Positions 21,360 to 48,783 of a stretch of DNA of 64,000 nt are shown here, one piece after another. Origin of the DNA: Ancylobacter sp. SL191 (lineage in GTDB: Bacteria > Pseudomonadota > Alphaproteobacteria > Rhizobiales > Xanthobacteraceae); contig NZ_CP113056.1 of the NCBI RefSeq assembly GCF_026625645.1, positions 3,323,001 to 3,387,000 of the forward strand, read 5' to 3'. How positions within the stretch are numbered: the stretch's first letter is position 1; every line of letters starts with the position of its first letter. A program made the translations under genes and the position numbers. The notes under the pieces were generated by a model. That model ran no database searches. It worked only from the letters and a program-made list of their open reading frames with translations, and was not told the origin of the DNA.

Positions 21360-21391
21360 CCCCTCACCCCCCAAATTTATTTTGCGACGGG

Positions 21392-21420
21392 ATTATCATG
21401 GGGCCGCCCCGGTACATCAA
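21392..21420 (-). promoter_or_regulatory. Sigma70-type promoter for the membrane moron
   Basis: On the minus strand: TTGATG (21420-21415), 17-base spacer, GATAAT (21397-21392). It points at the membrane genes and is one of the closest consensus matches in the window. TGCGAC/GTCGCA hexamers at 21383-21388, 21431-21436 and 21458-21463 surround it and may be operators. Confidence 0.7.
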
Positions 21421-21462
21421 TAAGGTAGTTGTCGCAAAGGTGCGAATAACGTACGGTTGCGA

Positions 21463-21685
21463 CGGGTCTGAAAACCCGAGAGAAAGGCGTGCCCGGCGAG
21501 CCGGGTTTTCTGCGTACGCGAATCGTGCGCAGGATCCCCTATGCCGGGGTGGAGCGATATAAGGCGCGCGAGCGCTCGAATAAGCTCACCTGACCTTTCT
21601 CAGGTTTTCAGCCCCCGGCGCCAGGCGGCCTCTGAAAAGCCCGTTCTGGCGGTGCCCTCAACGGCTGCCGAATAGGGGCTTTGCC
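21463..21685 (+). ncRNA. C4-like antisense RNA leader of the antirepressor
   Basis: An AT-richer leader that folds into successive hairpins: CGGGT/ACCCG (21463-21478), CCCGG/CCGGG followed by TTTTC (21492-21509), CCCC-TATGCC-GGGG (21536-21549), CCTGA/TCAGG followed by TTTTCAG (21589-21611), and TTTTCAG (21605-21611) pairing CTGAAAA (21632-21638). The hairpin segment CCCCTAT (21536-21542) is complementary to ATAGGGG (21672-21678), the ribosome site of the antirepressor. This is the layout of phage P1/P7 C4 RNA, which silences ant translation. A likely promoter is TTGTCG-N17-TACGGT near 21429-21457. Boundaries are approximate. Confidence 0.75.
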
Positions 21686-22663
21686 ATGACCGCGACCAAT
21701 CAGCTTACGCAGATCGAATTCCACGGCGACACGCTGTGGGCGACCGAAATCGACGGTGTCGTGTACGTCGTGATCAAGAACATCTGTGATCGCCTCGGTA
21801 TCGACTGGCGCGCGCAGCTTAAGCGCATCCAGCGCGACGCCGTTCTTGCCGAAGGTGTGTCCATGATGGACACACCTTCGCCCGGTGGGCCGCAGGAAAC
21901 GACCCTGTTGCGCCTCGATCTGGTCAATGGGTGGCTGTTCGGTATCGACGACAGCCGCGTGAGAGATGATGAAACCCGCAATCGGGTGCTGATCTACAAG
22001 CGCGAGTGCTACCGGGTGCTGTTCCAGCATTTCTTCGGTGCGTCTCGTGCAACGCGGGAAGGCCAAGAGCCCTGCACCTTGCCGGCGCCGCACGATGCCT
22101 TCATGCGCGGCGAGCCGTGGGCGGTGTCGTGGATGAACTCGGTGCTGCAGGTCTCCAGCCGGATCGAGCGCATGGGCGGGCGGGCACCGGCGGCGGACTA
22201 TCTGCGGGCGTGCGGTGTGCCCTATCTCGACCGCCTGCCGCCCGCGCCGCGGCGCACGGTCGATCCCGGGTGGGATGGACAGGGTTGCCTGCGCCGGCTG
22301 CTCGACGCGCCGTGCGCGGAAACCGACATGACCATTCGTGGTGCCCTGCTCGATCTGCTCGACGGGACGATGAAGGACTATCACGACGAAATCCACCGGG
22401 CGCTGGCGGCCTCGGGCGTGAAGACGTTCCGGCTCGAAGGTGAGCTCGGGGTCGCCATCGCCAACCGCCACCCCTATCTCACGCGGGCGGTGTTCCACGG
22501 CACGGCATGGGCGCATGACCACGCCCGCGCGCTGACCCGGCTCGGCGGGGCGCAGCGTGTCGGCCCTCTCACCTTCAACAAGCACTCGTCGCGGGCCACC
22601 TTCCTGCCCCCCGCCGTGATCGAGGATGCGCCCTCGGAGGTGCCGTTTCTCGCGACGGCCTAG
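21686..22663 (+). CDS. ant: Phage antirepressor (P22_AR_N domain)
   Basis: A 325-residue protein. Residues about 5-125 match the phage antirepressor N-terminal domain (QIEFHGDTLWATEIDG, then VVIKNICDRLGIDWRAQLKRI, and later FFG-type end). The C-terminus is helical and of unknown type. P22 Ant binds and inactivates CI-type repressors, so this protein would induce this or a related prophage. Its ribosome site ATAGGGG is complementary to the C4-like leader, implying antisense silencing in the lysogen. It sits in the late region, as in P22 immI. Confidence 0.85.
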   Translation: MTATNQLTQIEFHGDTLWATEIDGVVYVVIKNICDRLGIDWRAQLKRIQRDAVLAEGVSMMDTPSPGGPQETTLLRLDLVNGWLFGIDDSRVRDDETRNRVLIYKRECYRVLFQHFFGASRATREGQEPCTLPAPHDAFMRGEPWAVSWMNSVLQVSSRIERMGGRAPAADYLRACGVPYLDRLPPAPRRTVDPGWDGQGCLRRLLDAPCAETDMTIRGALLDLLDGTMKDYHDEIHRALAASGVKTFRLEGELGVAIANRHPYLTRAVFHGTAWAHDHARALTRLGGAQRVGPLTFNKHSSRATFLPPAVIEDAPSEVPFLATA

Positions 22664-28288: not shown

Positions 28289-28718
28289 GCCGGCCGGCAT
28301 CCGGCTGCACCCCACCATCGGCCCGCGCATCGTGCGGCCGACGCGGCAGACGGCCGAGCTGGTAATCGAGCTTGCGCCTGTGGATGGCGACCCCGTGCCG
28401 GCGCTGCGGATCCCGCTCGATGATGCCCGCGTGCGGCGCCTTTTGCTGGAGCTGGCGGGCGCCATGGGCGGCATGTGGCGCCCTGAAAAACATGGGGTTG
28501 AAGAACAAAAGTCGCACGTGCGACCGTGCGACCCCCTCGCAAGGGTCGCATGTTCTGCTGATGTTCTGATTGCAGAGGCGCGCGCCAGTCGCAAAAAGCC
28601 CAATCATGGCAAGGGCTTAGAAGGTGGTGAGCCCGTTGGGATTCGAACCCAAGACCCCATGATTAAAAGTCACGTGCTCTACCGGCTGAGCTACGGGCTC
28701 CCACGCCGGGGGGATTAA
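28266..28718 (+). CDS. Terminal phage ORF running through the attachment region, doubtful
   Basis: A 150-codon frame starting at TTG 28266, overlapping the previous gene. The first 75 residues look protein-like ([34 protein letters not shown]), as in phage hypotheticals. The rest crosses low-complexity repeats and the tRNA-Lys gene and ends at 28718 only because no earlier stop exists. In the excised phage the C-terminus would differ. It is probably a real phage gene truncated or altered at the prophage junction. Confidence 0.4.
28511..28593. repeat. GTCGCA repeat cluster at the prophage end
   Basis: GTCGCA at 28511-28516, 28545-28550 and 28588-28593, inverted TGCGAC at 28519-28524 and 28527-28532. 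The first pair forms the perfect palindrome GTCGCACGTGCGAC (28511-28524). They lie within about 115 bases of the tRNA-Lys 3' end, where integrase or Xis arm sites would be expected. Confidence 0.5.
28552..28566. promoter_or_regulatory. SOS-box-like GTTC-N7-GTTC at prophage end
   Basis: The sequence matches the alphaproteobacterial LexA box exactly (GTTC, seven bases, GTTC). No gene starts beside it in the integrated state. In the circular phage it would face whatever lies across attP, possibly integration genes. About one such match is expected by chance in a window this size. Confidence 0.3.
28625..28700 (-). tRNA. tRNA-Lys (TTT)
   Basis: A complete 76-base cloverleaf with encoded CCA (28627-28625). 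Acceptor GAGCCCG/CGGGCTC, anticodon loop ACTTTTAAT, T-arm GGGTTCGAATCCC. Its 3' end faces the left prophage, so it is the probable attB gene of that prophage. The anticodon TTT reads AAA/AAG lysine codons. Confidence 0.95.
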
Positions 28719-47664: not shown

Positions 47665-48783
47665 CTATACGGCTTTCAGCTTCCGCTTTCCAGTTCGGGA
47701 TTTATTTCGGGACTTTGAGAGCTTCTCAAGCCCCTCGCGCAGATCCTCGTCGAGCACATGGGCGTAGCGCACGGTGGTCTTGATGTCCCGGTGGTTGAGG
47801 GCCTTCTGCACGAGCTTCAGGTTGCCGGTCTGGCGCAGCAGCTTGGTGCCGAGGTCGTGGCGGAAGTCGTGGAATCGGAAATCGGCCATGCCCGCGCGCT
47901 TCTTCATCCGGCGCCAGTAGCTCTTCAGCCCGTCATAGGTCAGCGGCAGGCGCTCGCCCTTCACCAGCCCCTTGGAGCGCACGGTGCGCTGCACGATGTA
48001 CGTGAACACCTGGTGCGGGTGGTGCCCGCGCAGCGGCCAGAGGAGGGTGCGGATCTCGGCGGTGATGATGGTGCGCACCGGCAGGCTGCCTTTGCCGATG
48101 GTCTGGATGACGCCGGCCTCCCAATCCACCTCCTCCCACCGGATGAAGCACTCGGAGAGGCGCAGGCCACTGGCGCGGGCGAAGGCGAAGAAGGGCTCGA
48201 GGTCATCGCGCATCTCGGCATCGAGGCGCGTCTCCTCGGCCGGGCGCAGCTCGCGCGTGCGCTCGGTTGGCTCGCGCAGCATGTGGATCTTCCAGTTCGG
48301 CTCGCGCGGCAGTTCGGCGCCCCAGGCGCGCTTGGCCCGGTTGAACAGCTTCTTCAGCACCTCGGTGGTGGAGCGGTTCACGGTGGCGGGCGAAATGAAG
48401 GGCGCCTCGTCCCCCGCCCATGCGCGATGCCCGCGCCGCCACGCCACCATGTGGGCGACGGCGTCATCGTCGATATCGGCAAGGCGGGTCTCGGCGCCGA
48501 AATAGGTGAACAGCCGCTGGAGATTGGTCCATGTGGTGGCGGCGCCGGCGTGGTGCTTGCCGACCTCCTCCCAATAGCGGCTGGTGGCGGCGAGCATGGT
48601 GAGCGGGCCGGTGCGCAGCCGCTCCGATTCGCGGACGATCTGCTTCGCCTTCTCCCGCTCGGCGGCCTCTACAAGCTTCGCGGCCTTGAGTGTTTTGGCC
48701 TTGGTTGATCCGTGAAAGCGACGACCACGGACCTGGAAGTCGTAGTGGTAGAACGGGGACCCTTTCGGTTGGTAGAGCGACAT
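47665..48783 (-). CDS. int: Tyrosine-type phage integrase
   Basis: A 372-residue protein. The catalytic set is visible: Arg208 (GLRLSE), H305-x-x-R308 in HDFRHD, His331 in LNHRDI and the nucleophile Tyr340 in RYAH. The N-terminal half has an arm-binding region and a core-binding SAM-like domain. It inserts the phage into tRNA-Pro and, with Xis, excises it. It is the last gene of the leftward early operon and lies beside the att fragment. Confidence 0.95.
   Translation of the reverse strand: MSLYQPKGSPFYHYDFQVRGRRFHGSTKAKTLKAAKLVEAAEREKAKQIVRESERLRTGPLTMLAATSRYWEEVGKHHAGAATTWTNLQRLFTYFGAETRLADIDDDAVAHMVAWRRGHRAWAGDEAPFISPATVNRSTTEVLKKLFNRAKRAWGAELPREPNWKIHMLREPTERTRELRPAEETRLDAEMRDDLEPFFAFARASGLRLSECFIRWEEVDWEAGVIQTIGKGSLPVRTIITAEIRTLLWPLRGHHPHQVFTYIVQRTVRSKGLVKGERLPLTYDGLKSYWRRMKKRAGMADFRFHDFRHDLGTKLLRQTGNLKLVQKALNHRDIKTTVRYAHVLDEDLREGLEKLSKSRNKSRTGKRKLKAV

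Follow-up and report, generated by a model that had tools for sequence, protein, structure and literature searches.

A probable antisense-RNA leader of P4 cI / P1 C4 type before a prophage antirepressor gene and its kinship with sRNA-Xcc1

How might a prophage antirepressor gene be controlled by the leader that precedes it? The question is raised by the gene ant (21686..22663, plus strand) in the window, which is the whole 64,000-nt stretch analysed here and forms part of a 4.65-Mb chromosome in one contig. The original prediction took this reading frame for an antirepressor, and its product of 325 aa with a P22_AR_N domain bears this out (PF10547, E=8e-27; PHROG 'anti-repressor Ant', E=3.8e-39). 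The prophage has PHROG matches to primase and terminase and also to head-tail adaptor, major head, tail-tubular and internal virion proteins, and the latter are consistent with the 'T7-like' phage that had been proposed. A tRNA-Lys (28625-28700, minus strand) on the right-hand side of these genes is a possible attachment site, and an integrase domain is found farther right (47749-48192, minus strand).

The leader 21463-21685 is unusually structured (folding z=-3.2; 0 of 200 shuffles fold equally well), and a wider stretch reaches z=-4.1. Five hairpins had been predicted before ant. By eye they can be placed at 21464-21477, 21492-21505 and 21512-21530, with two more within 21543-21619, but the leader folded as a whole takes a different minimum-energy structure: there the segment seqA, described below, is paired in cis with the antisense strand. 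A possible promoter, TTGTCG-N17-TACGGT (21429..21457, plus strand), was recognised by eye as a weak match, and a consensus promoter scan listed nothing at this place on the plus strand. It is kept in the only close relative of the window leader that we found, a locus from Ancylobacter dichloromethanicus (L082). The putative promoter is spanned by the inverted repeat GTCGCAA-N19-TTGCGAC (21431..21463, strand not applicable), a possible repressor operator, which is largely retained in L082. Among 7 pattern matches in the window it is the sole one with zero mismatches, the chance mean being 8.08 for up to two mismatches. As for further operator sites, TTGCGACG is no more frequent than by chance. 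Inspection by eye also gave a candidate leader ORF that starts with GTG at 21489.

The central part of the leader, 21543..21627 on the plus strand, can be read as an antisense RNA element with a closing stem (21543-21549/21613-21619), two hairpins and a tRNA-like 3' GCCA (21620-21623). This three-way fold appears in the minimum-energy structure of the domain folded alone, with CCTTTC as the apical loop. In a permissive scan of 401 bases the element matched the sRNA-Xcc1 family (RF02221) at full length, model positions 1-87, with 32.4 bits and E=6e-4. The curated cut-off of 53 bits is not reached, and the element is, judged by its sequence, a divergent relative of sRNA-Xcc1 and not a certified member. 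Our own covariance model, R1, gave it 27.9 bits (E=0.0012). R1 was made from 34 sRNA-Xcc1 elements, none obtained via an antirepressor query, although L173 among them also precedes a P22_AR_N gene; a misalignment of the closing stem by MAFFT left its structure with no more than 9 pairs, and R1 was used mainly as a sequence model, with no claim of covariation. In genome-wide searches with stricter filters the window element was missed by both RF02221 and R1, and Rfam at curated cut-offs found nothing in the window but one tRNA.

The original prediction had called the leader C4-like. A covariance search with the C4 family RF01695 gave no match at the gathering threshold, nor at E<=10 within 21360-21760, which rules out membership of that family. 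What stands of the earlier reading is that an antisense-RNA leader of the antirepressor remains the best interpretation; the C4 family and the duplex named as key do not. For isrK (RF01394) there was no match on the plus strand of the leader, and one on the minus strand (12.6 bits, E=2.8) was taken as chance.

What, then, would such an RNA pair with? The apical loop of hairpin 2, CCTTTC (21594..21599, plus strand), extends to CCTTTCTC, and a second contact strand, GGTTTTCAG, follows at 21603..21611 on the plus strand. Both are complementary to seqA, GGGTCTGAAAACCCGAGAGAAAGG (21464..21487, plus strand), which consists of the hairpin GGGT-CTGAAA-ACCC and then GAGAAAGG. The loop pairs with GAGAAAGG, and the second strand matches CTGAAAACC in seqA as well as a block downstream. 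Pairing of seqA with the loop CCTTTC(TC) plus GGTTTTCAG amounts to -31.1 kcal/mol and is matched by 0 of 1000 target shuffles and 1 of 1000 antisense shuffles, so that the upstream target copy of a P4 cI-type system is present in the window. This complementarity of 21594-21615 to 21464-21487 is far stronger than the 7-nt CCCCTAT/ATAGGGG match of the original prediction. If nothing but duplex energy is considered, other places in the window pair just as well: among 9137 sites, seqA takes rank 5 to 9.

Immediately 3' of seqA we read a terminator-like hairpin from the sequence, CCCGGCGAGCCGGGTTTTCT (21492..21511, plus strand), built as CCCGG-CGAG-CCGGG + TTTTCT; a terminator scan of the window did not list 21492-21511. 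Within seqA, GAAAACCCG (21470-21478) can pair alternatively with CGGGTTTTC (21502-21510), the 3' half of this hairpin, which suggests an antiterminator.

The downstream target is less distinct in the window. The first block of seqC, CTGAAAAGCC (21632..21641, plus strand), retains the 7-nt match CTGAAAA, for which 379 of 1000 target shuffles are as good when it is taken alone, and the block facing the loop has drifted. The ant ribosome site, GAATAGGGG (21670..21678, plus strand), matches the antisense loop only with an interruption; the loop/SD pairing is -5.6 kcal/mol here and -12.2 kcal/mol in L082, with TGAGAGG. When the antisense RNA was scored against the whole ant leader, 861 of 1000 shuffles did no worse, a figure that is 254 of 1000 when only the ribosome-site stretch is taken, and contact between the antisense RNA and the ant ribosome site was rejected as the main contact in the window.

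Comparison with L082 provides a view of how the partners change. The promoter region, the terminator and the 5' flank are largely kept between the two loci, and the stem of the seqA hairpin is GGGT/ACCC in the window and GGTG/CACC in L082. In the 3'-strand contact both sides have changed, from CTGAAAAC with GTTTTCAG in the window to CTCAAAAC with GTTTTGAG in L082, and in the loop contact GAGAAAGG with CCTTTCTC has become TGAGAG with CTCTCA. The L082 antisense RNA is nevertheless predicted to pair with the window seqA at -27.9 kcal/mol, and the window antisense RNA with the L082 seqC at -30.0 kcal/mol versus -14.8 kcal/mol for its own seqC; specificity between the two leaders is thus not clean.

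Other searches from the window yielded few relatives. An 18-base string of the leader occurred in one viral contig (L236), which has no R1 element, and the leader as a DNA query against 397 genomes returned the window plus five short matches, with an element only in L238. A permissive Rfam scan of 20 homologous antirepressor loci showed L010 and L013 to have sRNA-Xcc1 right in front of ant with a score above its cut-off, with weaker matches in L082 and L085 (in L085 about 1.1 kb away), and C4 above its own cut-off in L009, L011 and L022.

Does the pairing rule hold across the family? Inspection of RF02221 loci had shown that the apical loop of hairpin 2 is matched both near the start of the following gene and by an upstream copy. 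In a cognate test each loop was therefore scored against its own flanks and against those of every other locus. In a set of 71 sRNA-Xcc1 elements the loop matched its own upstream flank (z=14.0) and its own downstream flank (z=11.5) better than those of others (0 of 20000 permutations each), and the 3' strand gave z=16.5 upstream and 4.2 downstream. Other segments of these elements scored lower against the downstream flank: z=2.0 at offset 0-11, between -1.1 and 0.8 at offsets 10-51, and 3.2 and 3.0 in the 5' flank. This set was drawn from 70 of the 102 listed RF02221 matches (the strongest, with a few skipped) plus 5 more, from which L221 and L229 (no flanks) and the near-duplicates L202 and L214 were removed. 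The test on it was not blind, since the 11-nt window used, element[-38:-27], was chosen after the loops had been inspected; an earlier hairpin-2 window of 22 nt gave weaker signals (z=6.0 downstream, 8.6 upstream).

The 11-nt window was reused unchanged for two more sets. For 32 antirepressor-linked elements the loop reached z=8.4 downstream and 9.4 upstream, the 3' strand 6.6 upstream and 5.5 downstream, the control segments 0.9 and -0.1, and the 5' flank 2.4. They derive from 50 of the 56 R1 matches before near-duplicate removal (L029, L056 at 1160, L085, L113 at 2216, L114 at 1160 and L162 were left out) and share L010, L013, L082 and the window with the set of 71. For 29 further alphaproteobacterial elements the loop gave z=3.5 downstream (11 of 20000 as high) and 6.5 upstream (0 of 20000), the 3' strand 9.3 upstream and 1.9 downstream (663 of 20000), the controls -1.1, -0.4 and 1.2, and the 5' flank 0.0. 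This set comprises 30 loci of the R1 genome search plus L238, which had already been inspected, with the window, L082, L247 (identical to L180) and L262 (short flank) set aside and near-duplicates kept. Across the three sets the z-scores indicate that the upstream copy is the more constant partner.

A sliding profile over 126 elements has its maxima at the loop (z=9.9 downstream, 15.0 upstream) and at the 3' strand (6.7 and 16.4). Smaller peaks are found downstream for the 5' flank (5.3) and the 3' end (7.0 and 5.9), and upstream for offset 0-10 (4.0). The C4 elements, 26 after near-duplicate removal from the 28 of 30 loci that were used, peak at their own loop (13.0 downstream, 11.1 upstream) and next at 54-64 (6.0 and 9.6). 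In C4 the 11 nt that match best are those at element offset 42-52, in Xcc1 those at 48-58. By this profile the two families have one design in common, despite antisense loops at different offsets.

The surroundings of the pairing sites are also recurrent. Of 98 elements, 69 have CGG after the upstream match, and 63 have a hairpin with a T-run at most 60 nt after seqA, versus 9 of 196 control stretches. Among 125 assignable elements, 70 have an acceptor-like stem followed by an NCC-type tail, 28 of them NCCA, which fits processing by RNase P.

How widely are these elements distributed, and which genes follow them? Of 398 sampled Pseudomonadota genomes, 57 gave an RF02221 match, 39 of them one that passed the cut-off, and 14 control genomes gave none; C4 (RF01695) was detected in 29 of 200 sampled genomes, with 20 matches in genome G130 alone. 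At 46 of 165 antirepressor loci, the window included, 30-77 nt separate the end of an R1 element from the antirepressor match that follows; the loci come from the best 80 of 217 viral and the best 80 of 127 genome matches, and many are near-identical between the two collections. All 56 R1 matches in 166 sources lie on the same strand as the gene. The genome of the window has a second antirepressor of P22_AR_N type outside it (G000:C1:3409945-3410517, L163), with no R1 element in the fetched flanks.

For 29 genes after sRNA-Xcc1 elements, with starts picked by script, Pfam recognised a domain in 13 and none in 16. Bro-N follows the element in L165, L168, L170 and L177, and below the cut-off in L179; KilA-N in L172, P22_AR_N in L173, Rha in L186, L188 and L191, SymE in L164 and L184, and Rap1a, of immunity protein type, in L190. 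In L168, L177 and L179 the loop match precedes an earlier ATG, and the Bro-N start is 109-120 nt past the element. Before symE the loop target is CTCACAGG in L164 and CTATCAG in L184.

The sequence itself shows the domain fold, the seqA match with its changes on both sides in L082, and the match to both targets across the family. On these features the leader 21464-21685 is probably an antisense-RNA module, complete in itself, that silences the antirepressor in the manner of P4 cI and P1 C4. From these features we infer transcription, processing, action in trans, the direction of the effect and silence in the lysogen. The transcript would start near 21464, so that seqA would be made first and the terminator-like hairpin reached next. 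A read-through transcript would hold the tRNA-like domain 21543-21627, to be excised from it. C4 and P4 CI RNAs are processed by RNase P, and in view of this, of the acceptor-like stem and of the 3' GCCA, the 5' cut would probably also be made by RNase P. The freed RNA would expose CCTTTC(TC) in its loop and GGTTTTCAG in a strand and pair with seqA of new transcripts. Withdrawal of seqA from the terminator-competing sequence would favour termination at 21492-21511, before ant. Covering of the SD region (seqC) would be a second route, strong in relatives and weak in the window, where CCCCTAT may partly replace it. The match of loop and 3' strand to seqA, placed before a terminator-like hairpin, points to P4-like attenuation.

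Passages of PMC4825925 describe for P4 a CI RNA that arises by processing of an untranslated transcript and causes termination by pairing to an upstream seqA and a downstream seqC. Set against that description, the window would have in common with P4 a leader-derived antisense RNA between two target copies, the downstream one a candidate, and premature termination; it differs in that replication genes are controlled in P4 and an antirepressor follows here. With the C4 RNA (RF01695) of P1/P7 the window element may share an antisense loop set against the antirepressor start, and the C4 loops match an upstream copy too; it differs by the absent RF01695 match, and Xcc1 differs from C4 by the offset of the best 11-nt stretch. 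With sRNA-Xcc1 it shares the three-way fold and a full-length alignment, and members of that family show the same layout before ant, Bro-N, KilA-N, Rha and SymE genes; it differs by its score under the cut-off. In Gifsy-1, as the same passages relate, IsrK is a short terminated leader that activates translation further down, and STnc1160 is a stable RNA 3' of IsrK, probably processed from the read-through transcript (PMC4825925). The order isrK / STnc1160 - anrP - antQ resembles the layout proposed for the window in its terminated leader RNA, its processed complementary RNA and its genes leading to prophage induction, as far as that account goes; it differs in that IsrK is a demonstrated translation activator there and the plus strand of the window has no isrK match.

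Could pairing over the ribosome site alone, in cis or in trans, silence ant by a C4-like block of translation? The original prediction placed the decisive duplex between CCCCTAT (21536..21542, plus strand, just 5' of the expected start of the antisense RNA) and ATAGGGG (21672-21678). Both segments are there and are exact 7-nt complements, and their pairing of -10.6 kcal/mol (-9.2 in L082) exceeds the loop/SD contact of the window. A longer contact of the 5' flank over the ribosome site also recurs at a like position in L013, L041, L142, L144 and L173 (for example GAAGTTTCCT with AGGAAACTTC), where the two sides change together from one locus to another, and over 126 elements the 5' flank matches the downstream stretch 18-100 above chance (z=5.9, 0 of 10000). 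CCCCTAT may thus contribute in the window. But a complement of at least 7 nt to the ribosome-site region is also found in 433 of 2000 dinucleotide-shuffled leaders, so the duplex is ordinary on its own. L082, the sole close relative, retains CCCCTAT and has AGAGGGG as the partner site with no compensating change, the flank contact is absent in the 29 further alphaproteobacterial elements, and a cut by RNase P at 21543 would remove the flank. We therefore rejected CCCCTAT as the main contact and regard translational block as quite improbable; the weak antisense contact with the ant ribosome site likewise leaves attenuation better supported than a block by pairing there.

An activation like that of IsrK is a more serious candidate, possible in our estimation if still rather unlikely. 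Here the short terminated seqA RNA would sequester or unfold the antisense domain and switch the antirepressor on under some condition. The parts stand in the order of Gifsy-1 isrK-STnc1160, to judge from the passages of PMC4825925, no other match in the leader is as strong as that to seqA, and L011 has isrK (28.4 bits, cut-off 50) and C4 in tandem before ant; against it, the window leader has no isrK match on the plus strand, and the direction of the effect is unreadable from sequence. Activation is compatible with the main explanation as well. The complementary pieces could also be alternative long-range helices of one transcript, with no free RNA acting in trans. This would agree with the whole-leader fold, and cognate matching would appear identical in both cases, so such matches cannot separate cis from trans. 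It is unlikely in view of the compact fold and tRNA-like end of the domain itself, of the free 88-nt sRNA-Xcc1 of Xanthomonas and the transcribed copies of Xylella reported in the passages cited below, and of P4 CI, C4 and STnc1160, described as separate RNAs in the sources as excerpted. A GC-rich leader that is structured but has decayed or is unrelated, complementary by chance and with no antisense RNA made, would explain the RF02221 score under the cut-off and the drifted SD contact; it is opposed by the fold, by the seqA pairing with its changes on both sides in L082, and by the tests across the family, and we consider it very improbable.

If antisense-RNA silencing of this kind is the role of the window leader, then we can ask: What does it mean for sRNA-Xcc1 as a whole? 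The window alone is a modest case, and the family-wide pairing rule is the finding of interest. The title of Chen et al. 2011 reportedly calls sRNA-Xcc1 integron-encoded. In the parts of the reports at hand it is an 88-nt RNA identified by Northern and RACE, with targets that are predicted only (PMC2996969), a role in virulence has been suggested, and one Xylella strain has seven copies, with transcripts from all seven detected in cells (PMC12189769). Together with symE, upstream of which it is placed, it forms the most widespread integron cassette in Xanthomonas, for which a divergent regulatory mechanism is suspected, as excerpts of PMC12444791 state. The sections seen of PMC12197685 review C4 with no mention of Xcc1, those of PMC2864571 tabulate C4 among structured RNAs, and PMC8876359, as excerpted, has sRNA-Xcc1 only among its references. 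The literature searched, limited in reach, contained no statement that sRNA-Xcc1 RNAs are silencers of cI/C4 type.

From the matching of loops to their own flanks, the parallel with C4 and the antirepressor, Rha and SymE neighbours, we infer that they are such silencers. The chances seem to us about even that sRNA-Xcc1 is a portable, gene-independent silencing cassette and not a virulence sRNA of the host: a tRNA-like antisense RNA between two target copies, the upstream one before a terminator, with which phages would silence antirepressors or Rha and which integron cassettes and other elements would use as the antitoxin of SymE. Copies lacking a downstream target would act in trans and provide immunity between elements with a common loop. 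In the literature as excerpted sRNA-Xcc1 has so far been an orphan with genome-wide predicted targets and a link to virulence, and the present tests assign most elements a local, checkable target. They tie the family to P4 cI, C4 and IsrK, which would account for its travel with phage regulators and integron symE. If this is true, leader-encoded antisense control of lysogeny is far wider in Pseudomonadota than P1, P7, P4 and Gifsy-1.

In eight elements (L245, L250, L254, L256, L259, L260, L265 and L268) the match to seqA upstream is clear, but one downstream near a start is slight or missing, and these may act in trans. Some small-genome alphaproteobacteria carry many sRNA-Xcc1-like elements, 11 each in G1014 and G1191 and 5 in G1262.
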